Source: Stephanodiscus triporus (Eukaryota > Bacillariophyta > Thalassiosirophyceae > Thalassiosirales > Thalassiosiraceae). From it: DNA of 17,585 nt. The stretch covers positions 1 to 17,585 of the forward strand of contig JALLAZ010000291.1 of NCBI GenBank assembly GCA_036939755.1, written 5' to 3'. Positions 145 through 16,825 of the stretch are shown one piece after another. The notes beneath the pieces were generated by a model. It did not search any database. It saw nothing but the letters and a program-made list of their open reading frames with translations, and was not told the DNA's origin. Positions within the stretch are counted from its first letter, which is position 1. Every line of letters begins with the position of its first letter. The translations under genes were made by a program, and so were the position numbers.

Positions 145-732
145 ATGGCACGTCTCTACTGGGACCGTGCGACCTACACATGCGCCCCGGCCCTCATCAA
201 TGCCAATGCAACCGAAAAACGTCTCTACTGGGACAGATCGCATTACTCGACACCGGAAGCTCAAGTGTGCGCCCTGGCCCTCTCCTCGACCGTGTACGTC
301 GGGAACTTGGCCTTCTCCACCCGCACCATCCACCTTCGGCGGCATTTCGAGCAAGTCGGCCCGGTGGCAGAAGTGCACATGGGCCTCGATCGGTTCAAGA
401 AGGTACCCTGCGGGTTCGCCTTCGTGGAATTCCGTCACAGGATCGATGCCCTGGGCGCAGTGGCAAATCTTACGGGAACGAAGCTCGACGGGATGCCGAT
501 CCGCGTGGAATTGGACGCGGGGTTCAAGCCGGGGAGACAGTATGGACGGGGCACTAGCGGGGGTCAAGTGAGGGACGATCGTGGTGGCGGGGCGAATAGC
601 GGAAGGAAACGTCAACGGAGCGAGGGCGAGGGGGGGGAGACGGGGGAGGACCAGCAGCAACCGAGGCGATTTCAACCACCACAGTTCGGAGCGAGGTGGG
701 AGTCTCCCAGTAGTCAGGGTCAGAATGCATAG
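145..732 (+). CDS. CBP20: Nuclear cap-binding protein subunit 2 (CBP20), 195 aa
   Basis: This is the small subunit of the nuclear cap-binding complex, which with CBP80 binds the m7G cap of Pol II transcripts and promotes splicing and export. One RRM spans residues ~48-124, with RNP2 VYVGNL (50-55) and RNP1 CGFAFVEF (89-96). The family-diagnostic tail DAGFKPGRQYGRGTSGGQVRD follows at about 124-144. Aromatic residues at the cap-stacking positions are present: a Tyr in YWDRSHY, Y51, F91 and F93. The Trp of human WDAGF is Leu here, a position that also varies in plants. The ATG at 145 has a good context (gcgATGg) and no intron is needed. The N-terminus is longer than usual because RLYWDR-x2-Y occurs twice, 23 codons apart. 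The C-terminus is Gly/Arg/Gln-rich. It is convergent with the ORC2 gene, with 139 bp between the stops. Identity is close to certain; the exact start could be one of the later ATGs. Confidence 0.93.
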   Translation: MARLYWDRATYTCAPALINANATEKRLYWDRSHYSTPEAQVCALALSSTVYVGNLAFSTRTIHLRRHFEQVGPVAEVHMGLDRFKKVPCGFAFVEFRHRIDALGAVANLTGTKLDGMPIRVELDAGFKPGRQYGRGTSGGQVRDDRGGGANSGRKRQRSEGEGGETGEDQQQPRRFQPPQFGARWESPSSQGQNA

Positions 733-871: not shown

Positions 872-3800
872 TTACTTAAGCTTGAAGTTAAGGATGTCAT
901 GCAATATTCCAGAAGGAACGCAAACTATCTCATTCCCCAGTTCACCCCTCTCTAGTGCAACAATTCTGTGATCAGAAAGCTCCTTGAGTATATTACGCAA
1001 AACTGCGTCCGAAGACGGCAGCATCTTCCTTGTGCACTCATCTCGCAACATTCCATACGACACAGCCTTCGGTGTGCTGGAATGTTGTAGGGTTGCCAGA
1101 GCTTGCAGTACCTCTGTGTGTCTGGGCGCAAGACAGGCCAGAACCTTGAGCGCCGCTGAATCTCCGCCAATAATTTGGCTGTCGTTTCTCCTCTTGACCT
1201 TTTTAGATGATACCGCATGAGGAATACTGCGCACTTCTTCGAAGTATGGCCTGTGCGTGTGGACCATTTTCCAAGCCTGAGAGTCAGTAAAGGTAATCAG
1301 TATGAGATCGATTATTGAAATCGCGAATGAAGCATGGCAGTGAAGTCACTTACCCAATCAAATTTGTGTTCTACCTCTGGAGACCATAACACCATGGCCG
1401 CATTCACATTATCAACGGAGGCCACGACACGTATCAACGGCGAGCCATCCTTATTGCTGTTTGCGGTCAATGTGGCAATAGAGTCTTGCGCAAATGGATT
1501 ACGCAAGCCTAAGCCATCAATATTGTGTATTAATATGAACAATGGCCTCGACCTTGTCAAAGCAATTTTTTTTGCAACGGAGGCGGCCTTTTTTGCTAGC
1601 CCTTTATTCAAATCTCTCGCTTGGGGTTGGTGTGATTCCCTTCCATCGCAGAATAAATCATCCATATAGTCAAGAAACACACTCATGTTGATGTTAGGGT
1701 CATAGCCATTGAGAATCATAACATCCCCTTCTTGGGCTAGGTAGTTCCCAAATCGAGTCAAAAGGGAGATCTTTGAGCCAAATCCAAACAGAAGGATTGA
1801 CTGCCTTGTTGCCAATGAAAACGACCACTCATCGAACTGTTGTTGGTATTGGACTTCGAACTTGTCAAACTCGATGTCGACATTGCATTGACGGTGCAGA
1901 ATTTCCACTTCAGCAATGCATTCCTTCAGAGAAGGCACGACGAGATCGCTCCTTGCACCATCGATTTTCGATATCTTTCCGGACTTTCTGCTAAAGTATT
2001 GATCAACCTCCTCGGCGCTTTTCCCACCTTGGGCATCTGCTTTAGAAGATTTGACTTGTGGATTGTCAACTTTAGCTTTTGAAGACTTGACTCGTGGACT
2101 GTTAACTTTAGATGTACCCGTATCAACACCAATGTTTCGGCAGCGTAGACACAGGTGTTCCTTCTTCGCATCCCAGCCCACAACATCCAAACAATCAATT
2201 TGGAGACACAGTCGGTGATAAAATCGCCCACACGATCCTTTACATTGCACGAGATCTCCCTTCCCCTTTGCACACGTCTCGCATCGAATGGTAGTGATCC
2301 GCGTACTCTGGAGGGGAAAAAGGGACGTCATAATAAAGCTCAAGATACTCGCACAGCAAAACGATGAACGTCAAGGACGGGAAACTTACCTCGGCATCTC
2401 GAACTTTCTCGGCCGATGTATCCAACGCATCGCGAATATGAACGGAAGCATCTACGCCGTTTCGACCGGAATCCGAAGAAACCCCCGTCTTCGATGGCGG
2501 CAGGGCGGCGTTGATGCAGAACAGGTGCGCCCATGTTTCGGACGATGCCTCCGACGATCTCCGGCTTTTCCTCTTTCGATCCCTCGCGTCTTTGGAGGGA
2601 ACGGTCGCGGCGTCCGCCTCGTCGGCCGCGATCCTGACCATGCCCCCGGCGACGTAATTCCAACCGCAAAGCGAGCAAACCGCGTCGGGATGATGATGGA
2701 CGCGCCATGCCTCGACGCGCCATCCCGAGCGTTGGGGTGCTTGCCATCGGGATTTGCACGCGGCGGCGCGATTGGTGCCGACGGGCGCCATCGCGCAGAC
2801 GTCGCACGCGAAGTACCCCCCCTCGTCCACCTCTGCGGCCCCGTTCCTCCCCTCGCCGCCCTTCTCCCCGTGATCCGAAAGGCCATAGCAGCGTGTGTGA
2901 GCCACGAGGCCGCATCCGCGACATGCCACGCGAGGATGGAAGGGATTCGCGCCCCCGAAGCACACCTCGCACGGCCGATGGCCGTGTCCGTATTTGGACC
3001 GTCCGACGACGTCCTCCTCCCCCTCCTCCTCCTCTCTACGGGCCAGGCCGACGCGCGAACGCTCGCGATACGCGACCTCCAGCAATTCGAGCCGCAATCG
3101 TAGGTTGCGACGCCGGTACGCAGTCGTGTTGGCGGACAGCGACGTTCGCGTCGCCTCGACCTCGGCCGGCGTCGAGCGGTAATCCGGCATGCAGTATTCG
3201 TCGAGGTAATCGATCAGCTCGTTGGGACTGTCGAATACCTCCGGACCCTCCTCGTCGTCGGTCCCTTCCCCGTCCGACGATCGTCCCGTCGTCCCGTGCC
3301 GACCGCCGTCGCGGGCGTTGTCGTCTTCGTCGAGGTCGAAGTGCTCGTATATTCTTTCGACTGTACCCTCGCAGTCGTACCTCCTCCCCCTCCTCCTCCT
3401 CCTACTTCGTTCGGGAATGTGATACTTGCCCGAGGAGTACGTCCACCCGGCGAGCTGGAGATACCTCCAAAGTTCGGTCGTGAAGGTGGGCAGGCTCAGT
3501 CCGAGGACCATCGTTCGGAGTTGAAAACAGTGCAGTCCGTCGAGGTTGACGTTCGCCCCGCGTCGTCGATCGTCGTTGTCGTCGTTGTCGTCGTCGTTCT
3601 CGTCGTCGTCGTCGTCCTCCCCCCGTGCCGATCTCGACGTCATCTCGCCATCAACCGACGGATCGACGACGCGGCGATCGGCGACGACGTCCGCCCCCCT
3701 CTCCTCGTCCGTCCCCGATGCCGCCACGTCGGCGACGGCGGCGTCCGCGTCGTCGTTCGAGATCCCGGGCGACGACACGCGCCCGACGACGACGCCGCCG

Positions 3801-4210
3801 CCGCCGCCGCCGTCGTCCCGGCGGCCGGCCTCCTCGGCCGACGACGACGCGTCGATCGCGCGCAGCGTCCCCTCCGTGAAGTTCGCGTCGTCGCGAAGCT
3901 CCGTCGCGCGATCGCAAACGTCGTACACGAAGGACAGATCGCGTCGTCGGGCCGAGCATCCGTCCCGCAGCTCGTCGAAGAGTCGCAGTTGGAAGGTCGA
4001 GGGGGGGGATCGGTCTTGGTCGTTGTCGTCGCATCCGTCGTCGTCTTCGTCGTCGTCGTCGACGACGACGACGGACTCGACGAGGCGTAGCACCCGCAGG
4101 GCCAGCTCCAGCGTCGACAGCGGCGTTTCCATGGCGATGCGCGCGGCGGAGCAGCGGCGGTAGAACCACCGGGCGTTGGAGTGATCCTCGTCGTCCTGTA
4201 GTAGTTCCAT
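872..4210 (-). CDS. ORC2: PHD-zinc knuckle-PHD (PZP) module fused to origin recognition complex subunit 2 (ORC2), ~1059 aa, 3 exons
   Basis: Exons are 4210-2390, 2307-1354 and 1276-872. Introns 2389-2308 (82 bp, GAG/GTAAGT...CCAG) and 1353-1277 (77 bp, TGG/GTAAGT...CTCAG) are both phase 0. ORC2 is a core ORC subunit with a degenerate AAA+-like fold that licenses replication origins. Residues ~730-930 resemble its AAA-like domain (LLFGFGSK at ~779-786; PLFILIHNIDGLGLR; VVASVDNVNAAMVLW), preceded by the ORC2-type VDQYFSRK motif. Exon 3 gives the winged-helix end, and the junction reads FDW/AWKMVHTHRPYFEEV, as the family does. Upstream lie PHD1 (Cys 414 to Cys 472), a C2HC knuckle (CSLCG from 512 to WAHLFC 565) and a C4HC3 PHD2 (C616, C619, C629, C633, H638, C641, C660, C663). 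This is the order seen in BRPF/JADE proteins. The N-terminus has Asp-rich tracts and a LWRYLQLAGWTYSSGKYHIP segment. The ATG at 4210 is the first in-frame ATG, in context gaccATGg. Confidence 0.9.
3561..4074 (-). repeat. GAC/GTC trinucleotide-rich stretches encoding acidic tracts
   Basis: Two runs, 3561-3616 and about 4018-4074, consist mostly of gtc/gac triplets on the + strand. Read on the - strand within ORC2 exon 1 they encode Asp/Glu/Asn-rich tracts (for example ENDDDNDDNDD). The triplet skew also keeps the opposite strand open and gives spurious Val/Ser-rich reading frames. Length variation between alleles would be expected. Confidence 0.8.
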
Positions 4211-4572
4211 GGTCAAGAATGGTAGTAATAAAGACGCGAGTTTTAAAGTGTTAGTGTTGCGCTGTATCGGAAAGGGTTCCCGCCAAGAAATTTAGAGTGT
4301 GGCCGCAAACCTGATCGATTTTGGCGCGCAGAACATTACAGTGTGTAGGTAGGTATCGTACCTAGCCATACGGTACATACCTACGGTTCATAGTGTAGAG
4401 AGATAGCAAAAGCCCAGCTATGGTGTAGATAGATAGCACCACCCAGCATTGGTCTCTCTCATCTCCTCGATCTTGTCGGTCCGTCCTTGATCCTCTGGTG
4501 GTAGAACAACAACAGGAGAGAGGAGAGGGAGTGAGTAAAGCAAAGCCAAAGCAAAGCGCAGCCCGGCACCAA
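4211..4572. promoter_or_regulatory. Shared divergent promoter of PZP-ORC2 (-) and SMC6 (+), with E2F-like motifs
   Basis: These 362 bp separate the two start codons and must hold both promoters and both 5' leaders. Two sequences match the E2F/DP consensus (TTTSSCGC or its complement): TTCCCGCC at 4277-4284 and TTTTGGCGCGC at 4319-4329. Both lie within 120 bp of the ORC2 start. A perfect inverted repeat TAGGTA-tcg-TACCTA lies at 4350-4364, followed by a 30-bp imperfect tandem duplication at 4393-4451. The motifs are visible in the sequence; that they act as E2F sites is inferred from the cell-cycle roles of the two genes. Confidence 0.55.
4393..4451. repeat. Imperfect tandem duplication, two ~30-bp units
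   Basis: Unit 1 (4393-4422) and unit 2 (4423-4451) both begin gtgtaga, contain agatagca and cccagc, and end in tg. They lie in the probable 5' leader of SMC6, so they are not coding. The function, if any, is unknown; replication slippage is a sufficient explanation. Confidence 0.7.
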
Positions 4573-7500
4573 ATGCCCACTTCGAAAAGGCATAAGCGCG
4601 CCGCCGTCCACCACGACGAGGAAGAAGAGGGAGTCGAGATCAAGAAGGCGAGGGCGAGCAGGGTCGCTCGCGACAAGGAGAACGAGATTCAGATGAACGG
4701 CGGAGGATGCGACAAGCGAGGCGGGGGCAAGGGCAAGTCGTCCCGCGACGACTACGAAGACGACTACGACGACGAAGACGACGACGAATACGACGAGCAA
4801 GACGAGCAAGACGAACGGCATCAGCCCCAGGCCTCCCCGCCCCGCAAGCGTCCCAAGAAGAAGAACGGCTCCTCCCCCGCATCATCGTCCTCCGCCGCCG
4901 CCGCCGCCGTCGGCTCCCCCCTGCAGGACCGTCACCTCAACCCCAAGGGCACGCCGGCGGAGGCGGGGATCATCCACGAGGTGTACGTCGAGAACTTCAT
5001 GTGCCATCGCAAGCTATCCGTCAAGCTATGTCGCAACGTCAACTTCATACACGGGCAGAACGGTTCCGGCAAGTCCGCGATACTCGCCGCGATACAGGTG
5101 TGCCTCGGGGCGGGCGCTCGTCGTACCCACCGAGCGAGGAACCTGCGGGATCTGGTCAGGAAGGAGGCCGGGTCCGATTGTCCGGGAGCGAGGCTGCGAG
5201 TCACGTTGCTCAACGGAGGAGCGGACGGGTACATGCCGGAGGTGTACGGGGAGCGCATAACGGTCGAGCGGACGATATCCCTCCGTCCGGGGGGTTACAA
5301 CGGGTACAAGCTCCTCGACTCGAATATGAAGGAAAGGTCTCGTTCGAAGAAGGACCTCGACGCGATGCTCGATCAGCTCAACATACAGGTGGAAAATCCG
5401 GTGGCGGTCCTCGATCAGGAGGAGGCGAAGAAATTCCTTACGGGGAAGGAGGAGGACAAGTACGCGTTCTTCGTCAAGGCCACGGAATTGGAACGGCTCG
5501 ATCGGGCGTACGCGAGCGTTCACGATAACATACTGGAACAGAAGGCGCTGCAGGAACGGGCAAGGGAGGGGGTGGGAGGGGCGATCGAGAACACGAGGAG
5601 GCTGAAGGTGGAATGGGAACAATTTCGAGAGCTGGACAAGCTCGAGTTGGAGGCGCAGGAGCTGAGGGCGATGTACGGATGGAGCTGTCACGGGGAGTTT
5701 AGGGAGCAGCTGAACGAGGAGATGAAGGTGCGTTACATATATACACGTTTATTTAAGCGACCGACGACGACGGACGAGAGGGAGGGGAGGTGGGATCGAC
5801 TGGACCACCAGTATTTATTACCCGATTTCTCGTCACCATCCCCCCCCCCCACCTCATCATTCTCGTTTCCACGTCGACCTCGAAATTATCACGATTGATT
5901 AGAAAGCCCAAAAGTACGGCCGGGCGCTCGAGAAGCGCCGCGTAGAGCTCGCCACGGCCGAGCAATCCCTCGACGTCAACGACGACGAAGAGGCGGAGCT
6001 CAAGAGGGAGATGGAGAACCTGTCCGAGGAGGCCAACGAGGCCGCCGAGTCGAAGATGCGCCTCGAGAACGCCGTCAGGGAGGCGTCGGTACCCGTCAAG
6101 TCGAAGGAGCGCGAGCGCGGCCTCCTCGCTCGGGAATTGGCGTCGGAGAAGAAGAAGCGCGATGCTGCCGTTCGCAGGCTCGAGGGGGCGAGGAGGCAGA
6201 TACTCGAGAGTCGGGGCAACGTCGCCGAGGAGGAACGCGCGCGTACGCGCAAGATCGCGCAGACGGAGGCCGACCTCGCGAGGGCCAAGGAGCAGGTCGA
6301 GCCCCTGCGGGAGGAAATCGCGATGCAGCTGCGCAACTACCAGGAAATCGAGCCCGCCGCCGCGCAGATGAAGGAGACGTTGGACGGGACGAATAGGCAA
6401 TTGGGCGCGGTGCAGCAGAAGGTGAAGGCGATGGAGCAGGAGAGCGGAGATGGCAGGGCGGCGCTGGCGGTGTTCGGGAGCAAGTGCAAGGCGTTGTACG
6501 AGGTATGGATAGATGCGTCCTTTCCCTTTTTGTGTGTGTAAATCCTTCCGTTGGCGCCCGTAGTCAATTGCTGAAATGCCTCGTGCTCCGTTCTTGGATA
6601 TGTCTATTTCCTTAAAATCGCAGGCCGTCCAAAAGGCGACCAAGGCCAACAAATTCCAGGGACCCGTCACGGGTCCCGTGGGGATGTATGTCAAGGTCGT
6701 GAGCGGCAAGGAAAAATACGCCAAAATTGCTGAATTGGCGATCGGTCCGGGCGCCTTGGATCGGTTCATCGTGACCAACCACGACGATTTTCAATTGATG
6801 AACAAGATCCGCAGGGAAATCGGATGCGGGCCGCGCGATTGTCCGCTGTATCGTATCAGTCCGAAATCGACGAAGCACAGGTACGACGTTCCCGCTCCCC
6901 CTCCCGGCGTGGAGACCGTCACGAGCGTATTGCATGTTGAAAATGCCATGGCGTTCAACATGTTGGTGGATCACGCTAAGATCGACACGTCGGCCCTAGC
7001 CGATTCCAAGGAAAGCAGTGAACAGGCCCTGCTCTCGAGGGAGAATGGGAGGAGTTTCATCAAGGGTGGGAAGATTGGTAAGGTGTTCTTCCTCCCCAAC
7101 GGCGATCACTGGGAAGCGAAAGGTGGCAACGTGATGATGGTGGGCAACGATCGCGGGATGAAGCAGACCATTGGTATCGATCGATCTGCGGCGATCGAGT
7201 CAGCGAAGCACGAGTTGAAGGCATTGCAGCAGGAGTTGGCACGGAACAAGGAGGAGCTGAAGGGGGTAAATGATGCCTCGTACAATCACAAAAAGGCTTG
7301 GAATGTGGCCAAGGAGAAATATAGTAAAATATCCAGTCAAATCAGAAGCATGGAAGAGATTTTGGAGAAGCTTCGGGATGAGGCTGAGACGTCCGAGGAG
7401 GCACCCACAATTGACACTACTGAGTATGAGAATGATATCCAAGAGGCAGAGACTGCCGTGCAAGATTTGAAGAAGAAGGAGGCAACGGTGGTGCAGGAGA

Positions 7501-8685
7501 TTGAATCCCTCCAGCCAGGTCTGAAGGAGCTAAAGAGGCAGCTGGAAGAAGTCCAGACGCGGAATAATAGGATTTTGGAAGATATGGACAAGGTCGAAAA
7601 AAAGCTTGAGGATATTGTGAAGGGCCAAACCGAAAGCATGGAAATGGTCGACAAAATCCGCGCGAAGGTAGAACAGATAGATGAAGCCGTGAAGCAGCAA
7701 GAGGGCATTGTGGCCGAAATCAAGGGCAAAGTCTCCGACGCTCTTTATGGTGCACGGAAAATGCAATTCGACTACAATCGCGATGTCAGAATTTTCGAAT
7801 TGAAGAAGAAAAATGGTGGTGAGCTCCCGCCCGGCGAGGAGGTGGAACTCGAACCCAGTGAAAAGGATCTCGAAGAGATTGTAGTCGTCGACCCAGAGAA
7901 TGACTCAAAGTTTTTCAAGACTAAGCTTCAGAACAAGTTGAAGAAGATCGAACAGGAGAAACAACGTCGTAATATGAGCGAATCCGACCCGGCAGTGGCA
8001 CGTGACAAGTACTTTCGCGCGAGGAAAGACCTTGACTCCAAAATGGAGCAGATACATGCCATCGAGAAGAATACCAAGGCCTTGACAAAAGACCTCAAGG
8101 AACGCAGGGACAGGTGGAAACACTTTCGACGTCATATTGCCGAAGCAACGAATCTTGGCTTCGATGAGATGTTGAATAAGAAGGGAAGTTCTGGAGAGGT
8201 GGAGTTTGATCACGAGGCGGGTAGATTGAATTTGATTGTTCAGAAGGTTAGTTCAACCCATCAATTGCAAAACTTGCTCACCGGTCTTCACTCATTTGCT
8301 TGTCTTAACCTGCGTCATCACGAACTTCTTATAGAGCAACACTGATGCACAGAGCCAGACAAAAGATGTCAAGGCATTGAGCGGAGGTGAGCGGAGCTTT
8401 GCCACGCTGTCCCTCCTCCTTGCAATTGGCGAAAGCCTTGAGACGCCCTTTCGCGTAATGGACGAATTCGACGTGTTCCTTGACCCTGTCGCACGAAAGA
8501 TTGCCATGGAAAATCTCGTTAGAGTCGCCAAGGAGATGGGCCATCGTCAGTTCATCTTCATCACACCGCAGGACGTTTCCAACCTGCAAACCGATCCGAA
8601 ATTGAGGATCTTTAAAATGAAACCCCCTGTGAGGAATAACACTGTTGGCGGCGCCCAGCAGCAAACGCTTGATTTTGAGAGCTAG
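4573..8685 (+). CDS. SMC6: Structural maintenance of chromosomes protein 6 (SMC6), ~1236 aa, 4 exons
   Basis: Exons are 4573-5727, 5903-6502, 6624-8246 and 8353-8685. Introns of 175, 121 and 106 bp are all GT-AG and phase 0. SMC6 pairs with SMC5 in the SMC5/6 complex, which acts on chromatin in recombinational repair and replication-stress control. Walker A is GQNGSGKSA at residues 161-169. NIQVENPVAVLDQEEAKKFL and DKYAFFVKATELERL match the SMC6 head. Coiled coils flank a hinge at about 596-730 (PVTGPVGMYVKV, IGPGALDRFIVTNHDDF). Exon 4 supplies the signature ALSGGERSF (~1134-1142), Walker B RVMDEFDVFLD (D1163, E1164) and QFIFITPQDVSN. The first ~140 residues are low-complexity: an acidic Asp/Glu/Tyr run (59-81), a basic NLS-like RKRPKKK (91-97) and a KEN tripeptide (35-37). 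The frame is open further upstream, but the first in-frame ATG is 4573. Confidence 0.95.
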
Positions 8686-9109: not shown

Positions 9110-11475
9110 CTACGAAGAAGACATCTTCCCAACTTCTAGGAGTGAGTCCAACAAAAGAAATTTAGACCCATCTTTCCCACCACTCGTAAAGTCATTGTCG
9201 ATTATTGCGACCAAATAATAGGTATCTCTCATTTTCTCTATCAGTTCATAGCTTTCACTTCCAAAGTCATACAAGTTGAGCCACATAGCCGACCAAAGGG
9301 AGAAAGCTTCTTCTGCCCAAACTAAAAAAATGTCAGGATCAAAAATCGTAGGTTGCAATATTTCTCGGTTTGGAAACACACCCCAAGTCAGCGCAGTCAC
9401 CCCTCCCTCCTCCACACCAACCCGCAATTCTTGCCCAGTGTAGTTCACGGCATACAGATTCATGTTTGGGTGGTCTGTGACCATTCGTGTAAGTCTGTTT
9501 GCTTTGTCAGGACTCACAAAGCATTCAACATAGGCTTTTTGATAAACCCTTCCACAAAAGCATCAACATGAGGAGAGGGGTTTGGGGCGAGAACGATGTA
9601 TGCTCCATGAAAACAAAGACAGCACCCTACCTTCCACCTTTACCACCCCATCCGAAAACAGGATGATTACTCGACGCGCCATCTACTGGGGGTTGACTAT
9701 TGACAGTCAGAAAACCATATCGATTTAGCCTCGCAAGCTGGGGCTGTATCAAAAATGATTCTGGTTGCAGCGGCGTCTCGCACCAAGGAATATGAGGAAC
9801 AGTGCCTTCTACATATCGAGCGAAGACTTCATGTACATCTGATTCGGCAAGAGGGCAACTTCCCAGCATGGCACGGCGGTCGTCATCAGAGCCCAAAGTG
9901 AATGAATAGAAATGAGATAATTCTGACAGTTCACCGAATGCAGGGGAAGTTGAGTCACCCCACCGGCCATTGGGAAACTGAACAGTGAAATTTCAGGTTC
10001 CAAAACCATTGTAGGTAATAATGCAAGAGAAGAGTGCAGATGTGAACAAGAGATCTCTAATTAGAATGAATTCTCACCTCATCCCAGTCATCCGTTCGCA
10101 TGATATACGATACAGGCCTGTTGCTCCAATTGATAGGTCTCACTGTCTCTTTGGATCGGTTCTCCATAGCTGATGGCTTCCATGGAAGGGCACGCCTAGT
10201 CGATCTCGCTTGCTCAGATACAGAATATTTTCGTTCTCTTTCTAGTGCTGCTTCATTGCATTCTTGGTTGTTATTTGCACTAGCCATACTATCGTCGACA
10301 TCATGAGCAAAGTCGCCTTCAATTTGGTTGCTCTGTTTTTCTCGTGATACTGAACTCAACGCGCCTAAACTTGCCAATATTCGTGTAGTACTGCGTTCTA
10401 GGTTCAATGTGTAAAAATGAAATCCATCCACGTACAAGTCTACACTAGAATCCTCCCCCACCAAAGGCGATGTAAGTATCGTCGAGCACATTTCAGTTGC
10501 AATCTCACATCCAATTCTTTTGACGGCCTCATCATCGTGACGAACGCTTTGAAGCCTTTCGACCACTGATGATGGAACAGATATGCCACAGAACTGAGTC
10601 ATCTTCAACAGACTTGAGTATGATTGAATGGGCATTATTCCAGGTATAATTGGGCAATCAATTCTCGACTTTCTGCACCTCTGGACATAATCCAAGAAGA
10701 CATTCACATCATAGAAGAATTGTGTGATTATGAAATCTGCGCCCGCGTCCAGCTTTTCTTTCAAATGCTGCAACTCACGAATATTCCCATCCTCTCCCTT
10801 CACAGATGAAGGATGACCTTCCGGATGACCCGCCACTCCTATTCCAAAGTAATCTCCATGCAATTTGCGAATCAATTTTACTAAATCAATAGCCCTGTCG
10901 CATTCTCCTCCACTGACATCTCCTTCCAGCCAAGCCCTCTTTCCCTGCGGAGGATCACCCCTCAGTGCTAAAATATTGCGTACCCCGGATGATTTCACCA
11001 TATTCAATATATGTGCTATCTGCTCCCTCGTCAATCCGGTACAACTTAAATGGAGTAAAACGTCGACACATGCATATCGCTGTGCATGCGAAGCAACAGC
11101 AAGCGTGCGTGACAACGTTGAGCCGTTGGCACCCCATGTGACAGACACAAAGAGTGGGTCCAACCTTCGGGACATGCGATCTATCCGAGTTAACAGGTTG
11201 TCGAGGCCGGGCTCGGTTTTGGGAGGGAAGAACTCGAAGGAATAATACCATCCGGTCTGAATCATTGCTAATTTATCATCGCGAGCGTTGGATGTGGAGC
11301 CCTGCGTTGGAGGATGCCCATTACTACAAATCTGCGGATGCGGCCGATTCCTGATGTGGCTGGGTATGCCATCCTCGGCGTCGGGTCGCCGATGCTGTGA
11401 AGCAGCAACGCGATTTTTCCTTTCCGACTGGAATTCTTTTCTTCTTGCGTGGATTTTATCGATTATTCGTACCAT
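9110..11475 (-). CDS. MTHFR: Methylenetetrahydrofolate reductase (MTHFR), ~727 aa, 3 exons
   Basis: Exons are 11475-10078, 9977-9631 and 9548-9110. Intron 1 (10077-9978, 100 bp) is phase 0; intron 2 (9630-9549, 82 bp) is phase 2 and splits an AGG codon. The enzyme reduces 5,10-methylene-THF to 5-methyl-THF with FAD, feeding methionine synthesis. The catalytic barrel (residues ~76-370) starts YYSFEFFPPKT, where E81 matches the catalytic Glu. It contains HLSCTG, LALRGDPP, AGHPEGHP, DFIITQFFYD and PGIMPI. The eukaryotic regulatory half follows: RALPW, VRPINWSNRPVSYIMRTDDWDE, then across the splice FPNGRWGDSTSPAFGEL. Exon 2 ends LTVNSQPPVDG...VFGWGGKGG and exon 3 continues VYQKAYVECF...ALTWGVFPNREILQPT. 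A ~75-residue non-conserved N-terminal extension precedes the barrel, and M71 is a possible alternative start. A polar, Ser/Glu/Asn-rich linker of ~70 residues joins the halves. The gene looks intact. Confidence 0.95.
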
Positions 11476-11781
11476 TGTTCTGTGTTAGTTTTAGACAAAG
11501 AGGGAGCGAGCGTGTGGTGTCTTCTCTGCTTTGCGCGCAGCTGGATATCGGTTGTTGTGGAGAGAGGTTTGTCAGTCTACCCGTGTACTATTCCTTCCCA
11601 CGTAGGAGGAGTCGCTCCGCAGGCCCAGCCTCCGGTCAATCACGGACAGCCTCCGGTTTCAACGTACTTACGATATCTCCTTTTTTCCGACCAACAACCC
11701 CGCCCCGCCCCCTCCGCCCCTACTAATAGCACTCTGCACGAGACGATGTGAAACCAACTTGCTTCATAAGACAAGTTCAAC
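11476..11781. promoter_or_regulatory. Divergent promoter region between MTHFR (-) and the disordered-protein gene (+)
   Basis: The 306 bp between two divergent start codons must contain both promoters. A C-rich, GC-box-like run lies at 11698-11720 (ccccgccccgccccctccgc and onwards), and the 11-mer CAGCCTCCGGT occurs twice within 11628-11660. I see no clear TATA box. Regulatory function is inferred from position only. Confidence 0.4.
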
Positions 11782-15177: not shown

Positions 15178-15248
15178 GCGCTAGTGGTTTAGTGGTAAAA
15201 TCCAACATTCCCATTGTTGGGCCCCGGGTTCGATTCCCGGCTGGCGCA
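15178..15248 (+). tRNA. tRNA-Gly (anticodon CCC)
   Basis: The 71-nt cloverleaf folds fully. Acceptor stem GCGCTAG pairs with CTGGCGC, allowing one G-U pair, and the discriminator is A. The anticodon stem CAACA/TGTTG holds the 7-nt loop TTCCCAT with anticodon CCC. The T arm is CCGGGTTCGATTCCCGG. The internal Pol III promoters fit: A box TGGTTTAGTGG and B box GGTTCGATTCC. No CCA is encoded and there is no intron, as expected for a nuclear gene; it reads GGG codons. The overall sequence resembles eukaryotic cytosolic tRNA-Gly. Confidence 0.95.
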
Positions 15249-15517: not shown

Positions 15518-16825
15518 ATGGCGCACATCCACACCTCCTCCGACCGCACTTACAACCGAGCCAACTCAACTTCGACCATGCCTCGCGTCGTCCAGCCCGG
15601 CGGATTGTCGGGTAAAATGCGCGTGCGCTACACCGCACGTCGCAAGCTTGCCCTTCTCGCTTCGGCCAAGCGCATCATGGAGGAGGAGGGGTTGACTCTC
15701 CGTATGGCTGCCGAACGCCTCCGTGTAAGCCATACACTTTTCGTGAGGTGGGAGAGGCAGAGAGATGCCGATGGCGACCCCATCCTCGCCATGCTTAAGA
15801 AGAGGATGAAGGCTAATCATCCTGGACCGGCTTCGCAGCTGAAGCCGATCGAATGTGCCCTGCTCCGCTACATCTTCGAGCAGCGCGAGCAGGGCATGGC
15901 CATCTCGACATTCGACCTGGCCATCAAGGCGTCGATCCTCTCCCCCGAGTTTGGTGCCAAGCACTTTGTTGCTCGGTACAGTGCCATCCAACGTTTTTTA
16001 AGCGCCCATTCGATGGTCTATCGAATGGGCACGCACGAAACGCAGCGGAAGCCGGAGGAAGTCGCGACGGAGGCGGCGGAGTATATGGCTCTCGTCCGCC
16101 AACTTCTCGTCGGCCCGCATCGCGACCGGCGTTTCGTCCTGAACATGGACCAAACGCCATGTTTTTTTTCCATGTCCAAGAAGAGGACACTGGAAGTGGT
16201 CGGTCGGAAAACCGTCCACATTCGTACGTCGACCAACGACACGAAGCGTGCGACGGTGGCGGTGACGATCGCTGCCGACGGCACGGTCCTCCCGCTGATG
16301 GTCGTATTTAAGGGGCAGCGGACGGGTCGGATCGCGACGAGGGAGTTTTCGACGTACCCAACAACCCACCACTACCGTTGTCAACAAAAGGCGTGGATGG
16401 ACGAGCAGGTAATGCTCGATTGGGTCGACGACGTACTGGCTCCGTACATCGCGACCGCGCCGGAGCATGTGATTCCCGTGCTCGTCCTCGACAGCTACCG
16501 ATGCCACATGATGGCATCGGTAGTTTCGAGAATTCAGGAGCTCGGGGTGGAGGTGATGCACATCCCAGGCGGATGTACATCCCTCTGCCAGCCCGTCGAT
16601 GTTGGCTTTAACAAGCCATTCAAAGATCGGGTCCGGCGGCAGTGGGTGTCGTGGATGATCGCCGAAGGCGTCATCCACGGCACAACGAGCCAGCCAACGA
16701 GGCGCGATGTTGCGGGGTGGATTGATCGGGCGGTGGCGGAGATGCGGAGTGAGGGGACAATCTGCCGCAACGCTTGGCAGAAAACAGGCTATGAATGGTT
16801 CGCGACGGAGGGGGGTAATAATTAA
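15518..16825 (+). CDS. Pogo/Tigger-type DDE transposase, 435 aa, apparently intact
   Basis: This is a cut-and-paste transposase of the Tc1/mariner/pogo superfamily (DDE_1 family, related to CENP-B and jerky). An N-terminal helix-turn-helix lies at residues ~40-80 (RRKLALLASAKRIMEEEGLT, then MAAERLRVSHTLFVRWERQ). A second, CENP-B-like DNA-binding region follows at ~107-175. The catalytic Asp residues are all present: D211 in FVLNMDQTP, D325 in VLVLDSYRCHM and D361 in CTSLCQPVDVGF, with 35 residues between the last two (DD35D). The frame has no stop or frameshift, which suggests recent activity. ATG 15518 opens the frame; ATG 15578 (MPRVVQPGGLSGKMR) is an equally good start. An E2F-like TTTGGCGCGC sits at 15501-15510, just before the first ATG. 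Identity of the superfamily is firm; the subfamily name is less so. Confidence 0.93.
   Translation: MAHIHTSSDRTYNRANSTSTMPRVVQPGGLSGKMRVRYTARRKLALLASAKRIMEEEGLTLRMAAERLRVSHTLFVRWERQRDADGDPILAMLKKRMKANHPGPASQLKPIECALLRYIFEQREQGMAISTFDLAIKASILSPEFGAKHFVARYSAIQRFLSAHSMVYRMGTHETQRKPEEVATEAAEYMALVRQLLVGPHRDRRFVLNMDQTPCFFSMSKKRTLEVVGRKTVHIRTSTNDTKRATVAVTIAADGTVLPLMVVFKGQRTGRIATREFSTYPTTHHYRCQQKAWMDEQVMLDWVDDVLAPYIATAPEHVIPVLVLDSYRCHMMASVVSRIQELGVEVMHIPGGCTSLCQPVDVGFNKPFKDRVRRQWVSWMIAEGVIHGTTSQPTRRDVAGWIDRAVAEMRSEGTICRNAWQKTGYEWFATEGGNN

Follow-up and report, generated by a model that had tools for sequence, protein, structure and literature searches.

Most eukaryotic replication origins have no strong sequence code, and the known links between the origin recognition complex (ORC) and histones include the BAH domain of ORC1. 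In a stretch of DNA from the diatom Stephanodiscus triporus (17,585 nt of contig JALLAZ010000291.1, assembly GCA_036939755.1; hereafter the window), a first-pass annotation had proposed that another subunit, ORC2, is fused to a PZP, a module made of a PHD finger, a zinc knuckle and a second PHD finger. The locus raises the question of whether these fingers and ORC2 belong to one protein, how far the fingers make up a PZP, and whether such a protein could tie ORC to chromatin.

Gene structure and the ORC2 core

When the introns near the proposed junctions were enumerated, a single model kept the frame and had canonical splice ends in both of them. The features of the predicted gene and its product, in window coordinates, are as follows.

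872..4210, minus strand: whole gene, three exons, 1059-aa product
2390..4210, minus strand: exon 1 (residues 1-607), coding for the acidic N-terminal arm, PHD1 and the knuckle
2795..2971, minus strand: PHD1, residues 414-472, C4HC3
2516..2677, minus strand: C2HC zinc knuckle, residues 512-565, CSLC...GG...WAHLFC
2308..2389, minus strand: intron 1, 82 nt, GTAAGT...CAG, phase 0, containing an ATG at 2331 in the exon 2 frame
1354..2307, minus strand: exon 2 (residues 608-925), with PHD2 and the larger part of the ORC2 RecA-like domain in a single open frame
2140..2283, minus strand: PHD2, residues 616-663, C4HC3
1277..1353, minus strand: intron 2, 77 nt, GTAAGT...CAG, phase 0
872..1276, minus strand: exon 3, residues 926-1059, ending in a stop codon (last base 872)
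1085..1872, minus strand: ORC2 RecA-like domain (Pfam), residues 753-989, split by intron 2
914..1078, minus strand: ORC2 winged-helix domain (Pfam), residues 992-1046

The coordinates, strand, splice sites, frame and 1059-aa length in the first-pass annotation were recovered at the level of the sequence, from which we also infer that intron 1 is spliced. Two more intron combinations stay open for >1000 aa (1062 and 1057 aa), with poorer donors. They alter only a handful of residues where exons 1 and 2 meet, and the domain results are unaffected.

The exon junction falls inside the module, between the knuckle in exon 1 and PHD2 in exon 2, as had been claimed, and exon 2 does continue into ORC2, with PHD2 and the ORC2 domain contiguous in one open frame. 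Since PHD2 and ORC2 lie in the same exon, the PHD-ORC2 link is independent of intron 1, while the three-part module depends on it. On this model PHD2 is almost certainly fused to ORC2, and PHD1, the knuckle and PHD2 very likely all belong to one chain. A separate ORC2 start inside exon 2 had been named as part of one case that would speak against the fusion. There is no methionine in exon 2 before residue 804, which lies within the ORC2 domain, and thus an AUG-started separate ORC2 inside this exon is excluded. The ATG in intron 1, being in frame with exon 2, could give rise to a shorter product of 460 aa that has PHD2 and ORC2 but neither PHD1 nor the knuckle.

The ORC2 identity of residues 753-1046, as predicted from profiles, is secure. 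Pfam RecA-like_ORC2 scored 127 bits at residues 753-989 (cut-off 25.1), and WHD_ORC2 scored 38.2 bits at residues 992-1046 (cut-off 27.3). The best PDB match is human ORC2 (E 5e-24, query residues 678-1054), and 7 of the 11 distinct PDB sequences matched at E <=1 are ORC2. The remaining four comprise two KDM5 fingers together with NSD3 and GON7, of which GON7 aligns against the acidic arm. The earlier claim that a complete ORC2 follows the fingers is borne out by these matches, with both Pfam domains above cut-off and human ORC2 aligned. The RecA-like and winged-helix domains are shared with known ORC2 (human 7cte chain B, Drosophila-type 4xgc chain B), as judged from the human alignment. In contrast, the known chains align with the query from residue 678 or later, and the zinc module has no counterpart in them. 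A profile search of the whole assembly for the ORC2 family gave one match, and so no plain second copy was seen there.

The zinc-finger module and its likeness to PZPs

Upstream of the ORC2 core, the zinc ligands follow the PHD-knuckle-PHD order that the first-pass annotation had described. The Pfam PHD profile scored 23.4 bits on the whole protein, just below the cut-off of 24, and 30.7 bits, in two stretches, when residues 400-666 were scanned alone. All 20 zinc ligands (20/20) occur in PHD-knuckle-PHD order in one chain, in the spliced model only. This 20-ligand pattern, whose spacing ranges, like the knuckle signature, were set after sight of the sequence, appeared in none of 20000 whole-protein shuffles and in none of 20000 shuffles of residues 400-670; it had no match among the 26 loci of the genome that we examined, L003 included. 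The knuckle signature was searched in the window and in loci L001-L038 (184,326 translated residues), where it was present in four genes, namely ORC2, L003, L023 and L024; none of 50000 shuffles contained it. The gene count is not genome-wide, because many of the loci were picked for a PHD or extended PHD match. Structure prediction without relatives, with the pieces folded separately, gave mean pLDDT values of 37.2 for the exon 1 part (208 aa) and 31.5 for exon 2 (318 aa), which makes the models useless for judging whether the region would adopt the saddle-like PZP fold with its five zinc sites.

The known PZPs of BRPF1, JADE1/3, AF10, PHF14 and NTO1 share with the ORC2 module the PHD-C2HC-PHD order and the knuckle CxLC...GG...W[AV]HxxC. 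The ORC2 module differs from them in having about 40 residues between PHD1 and the knuckle, a 54-residue knuckle, a C-x2-C end and a PHD1 that has lost its Asp. These proteins act as scaffolds for acetyltransferases or as cofactors of DOT1L, and none is an ORC subunit.

The two extended-PHD families of Pfam, zf-HC5HC2H and zf-HC5HC2H_2, scored 19.8 bits (cut-off 29.1) and 17.7 bits (cut-off 27), both below. Against a profile built from three animal PZPs (JADE1, JADE3, BRPF1), the ORC2 fingers reached 6.6 bits, a score exceeded by 8 of 2000 shuffles, with a maximum of 9.9. On the same profile L003 scored 27.4 and the single-PHD gene L007 scored 20.6; since single-PHD genes such as L007 score so high, this profile is a weak judge of PZPs. 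The final ligand pair of PHD2 is C660-x2-C663, with no final His. The module is therefore best termed PZP-like: the ligand order fits, whereas the extended-PHD families, the animal profile and the final ligand pair do not, so that on these comparisons the name PZP is only partly earned. The fingers may fold together as one PZP.

Three further genes of this genome are PZP-like (L003/L038, L023 and L024/L037), two of them with long knuckle inserts. Like ORC2, they have the knuckle signature and a PHD-type finger upstream of it, and PHD1 of L024 has CRxCG...H..CYG in common with PHD1 of ORC2. They differ from ORC2 in their last ligand pair, which reads C-x2-H in the sequences of L003, L023 and L024, and their open frames contain no ORC2 part recognisable by eye. 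PHD1 of ORC2 scored 61 against the zinc region of each of L024 and L023, and PHD2 scored 56 and 52 against the same regions (each time the zinc region as a whole), with 0 of 300 shuffles as good in any of these cases. The zinc region of L003 matches less well (8 of 300 shuffles as good for PHD1, 34 of 300 for PHD2). For the knuckle, no pairwise similarity to any of the three genes was seen beyond the ligands (216, 192 and 27 of 300 shuffles as good).

Outside the fingers, neither residues 1-129 nor residues 215-386, the second piece also in a shortened version, had a Pfam match. NCBIfam gave no match. The N-terminal arm contains LWRYLQLAGWTYSSGKYHIP...FDSPNELIDYLDEYC (window 3191-3472, residues 247-340), which we take to resemble a module widespread among the chromatin proteins of diatoms. 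The basic linker between PHD2 and ORC2 carries the near-repeat KVNSPRVKSSKA / KVDNPQVKSSKA (window 2038-2109, residues 674-697). Searches for relatives in viral_contigs and genome_contigs gave 2 and 11 pattern matches, none confirmed, which is unsurprising given that these are collections of viruses and prokaryotes.

Genomic surroundings and ORC1

The assembly comprises 21.65 Mb in 1324 contigs. It contains a silicon transporter (758.8 bits, profile positions 2-478 of 513) and 27 light-harvesting (LHC) matches, some of which are pieces; the PDB matches of two of these are LHCI, VCPI, XLH and FCP proteins. The silicon transporter and light-harvesting content fit a diatom genome.

A gene of the SMC type, which matches SMC_N and AAA_23 and which we take to be SMC6-like, is divergent from ORC2, and the two genes have the intergenic region 4211-4572 (about 360 bp) in common (window 872-8685). 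GC is high near this shared promoter and falls from 5' to 3' in both genes. Elsewhere in the window, a short RRM protein (145-732, plus strand, 49.4 bits) resembles the nuclear cap-binding subunit CBP20. A methylenetetrahydrofolate reductase gene is located at 10057-11484 on the minus strand (PF02219, 316.2 bits on a 264-aa piece), and the frame at 9110-9562 looks by eye like the C-terminal part of this enzyme. An open frame at 15518-16825 (plus strand) carries a DDE_1 endonuclease domain (95.3 bits), presumably that of a pogo-like transposase, with a tRNA upstream of it at 15178-15248.

We also searched the assembly for ORC1. The profiles PF09079, PF22606 and PF17872 gave 0 matches each across the 1324 contigs; the controls for these families were prokaryotic genomes, with matches in three, three and one archaea, and may not gauge a diatom ORC1. 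The ORC1 motif GVPGTGKT occurs in one place in the assembly, in a frame that reads by eye as a katanin-like ATPase, and the motif NTMDLPE, with one mismatch allowed, occurs in 0 places. The one BAH match in the assembly is below cut-off and lies in a 913-aa frame, which was rejected as ORC1 by eye. An ORC survey notes that Pfam profiles may overlook two domains of ORC1, BAH and Cdc6_C (PMC7058166), so the failure to find ORC1 is no evidence of its absence; it also says little because the assembly is in 1324 contigs. The proposal in the first-pass annotation that histone marks direct ORC through ORC2 in place of ORC1 is therefore speculative.

The same survey, covering 132 eukaryotes, reports a PHD in ORC1 of Chloroplastida and, in the part available, describes domain architecture for ORC1 (PMC7058166). 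In Chloroplastida, as exemplified by Arabidopsis ORC1, the PHD sits on an ORC subunit and is described as taking part in chromatin interaction (PMC7058166). The present gene differs in that it encodes ORC2 rather than ORC1, has PHD-knuckle-PHD rather than a single PHD, and belongs to a different lineage. No report of a PHD or PZP on ORC2 was found in the open-access literature (supplements excluded), which agrees with the statement of the first-pass annotation that no described ORC2 with a PZP was known; a Phaeodactylum paper naming ORC2 leaves PHD unmentioned (PMC10801743). What appears to be new here is a PHD-type module on another ORC subunit, in another lineage and in compound form, seen in one species.

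A possible chromatin tether and its alternatives

The gene model, the ORC2 identity, the order of the zinc ligands and the exon shared by PHD2 and ORC2 are established as far as sequence analysis reaches. The reading we lean towards, with modest confidence, is that a single gene encodes an ORC2 core with an N-terminal, PZP-like, chromatin-tethering arm. ORC2 would bear a PHD, a C2HC knuckle and a PHD on this long arm, and its core would occupy the usual position in ORC. The PZP-like module would then serve as a built-in chromatin tether, helping ORC to settle or remain on nucleosomes through a grip on the H3 tail or on DNA nearby. By binding nucleosomes the fingers may also affect origin choice. 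We suggest only tentatively, and regard as doubtful, that ORC2 in this diatom lineage is a chromatin reader whose PZP-like module, with a charge-reversed H3R2 pocket in its first finger, reads nucleosomes in a manner new to PZPs, and that the chromatin state sensed in this way determines where origins are chosen.

H3 binding is described for the PZPs of BRPF1, AF10 and PHF14, and DNA binding in addition for the first two, in two papers (PMC10124903, PMC4705663), the second of which describes the BRPF1 PZP as contacting DNA through its knuckle and PHD2. In PHD1 of AF10 the carboxyl of D43, the residue after C42, holds H3R2, and the remaining contacts are described as made via the backbone (PMC8257627, in part). 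JADE1, JADE3 and BRPF1 have, in their sequence letters, an Asp after the third Cys of PHD1. In the ORC2 product the corresponding residues are Arg431 in PHD1 and Lys630 in PHD2, and the sequences of L024, L023 and L003 read Arg, Gly and Ala after the third Cys of PHD1. The classical H3R2 pocket, as read from these letters, is altered in the ORC2 module and in the other PZP-like proteins of this genome that we have seen. A methyl-lysine cage in PHD2 was considered and rejected, there being no Trp before VQC where KDM5 fingers carry one. Of the BRPF/JADE/AF10-type histone reader that the first-pass annotation had proposed, the PHD-knuckle-PHD order stands, but the profile match is no better than shuffles and the H3R2 Asp is replaced by Arg431.

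The same substitutions, at Arg431, at Lys630 and in the three other PZP-like genes, point towards an explanation in which the fingers are real and fused to ORC2 and yet are not histone readers: they would form a structural arm, or one on which an acetyltransferase, a licensing factor or partners of ORC dock, and ORC placement would be independent of histone marks. We consider this unlikely: AF10 PHD1 holds H3 by many backbone contacts (PMC8257627), so that a missing Asp does not settle the matter, and the slightly basic character of the module (pI 8.4) allows DNA binding. The linker that follows the module is basic as well (pI 10.4).

A different possibility, and one to be taken seriously, is that the locus holds overlapping units, with the 460-aa PHD2-ORC2 form starting at the intron-1 ATG and a separate exon 1 protein carrying PHD1 and the knuckle, so that the three-part module never exists within one chain. 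The position of that ATG in the exon 2 frame agrees with this, as does the fact that exon 1 read through intron 1 stays open to 656 aa. Nevertheless, we judge it quite improbable: PHD1, the knuckle and PHD2 stand in PZP order on the two sides of the junction, intron 1 has canonical ends and its removal preserves the frame, and the 460-aa form would be a PHD-ORC2 fusion all the same. Far less probable still, and rejected by us, is an assembly or binning chimera in which unrelated sequence was joined near 2400. Coding GC does change, from 0.59-0.75 in stretches of exon 1 to 0.44-0.46 in exon 2, and GC3 ranges over 0.66-0.92 in exon 1 and 0.39-0.52 in exons 2 and 3. However, the drop starts within exon 1 (GC3 0.40 at residues 580-599, in noisy 20-codon steps), and it is mirrored in the neighbouring gene that we take to be SMC6-like, where GC falls from 0.64 to 0.47 (last piece 0.52). 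Moreover, a join near 2400 could not produce the PHD2-ORC2 fusion, both parts of which lie within exon 2.

The preferred reading, an ORC2 with its own chromatin tether, can be set beside what has been described for licensing. HBO1 is an ORC partner linked to histones, its BRPF scaffolds carry a PZP, and its JADE form acetylates histone H4 during licensing (PMC11566351). If our reading is true, the PZP-like module would give ORC2 a route of its own from ORC to histones, independent of the known ones, and origin choice in diatoms could be tested by deleting a single domain. If the fusion is common to related diatoms, a core complex of replication would have changed throughout the lineage.
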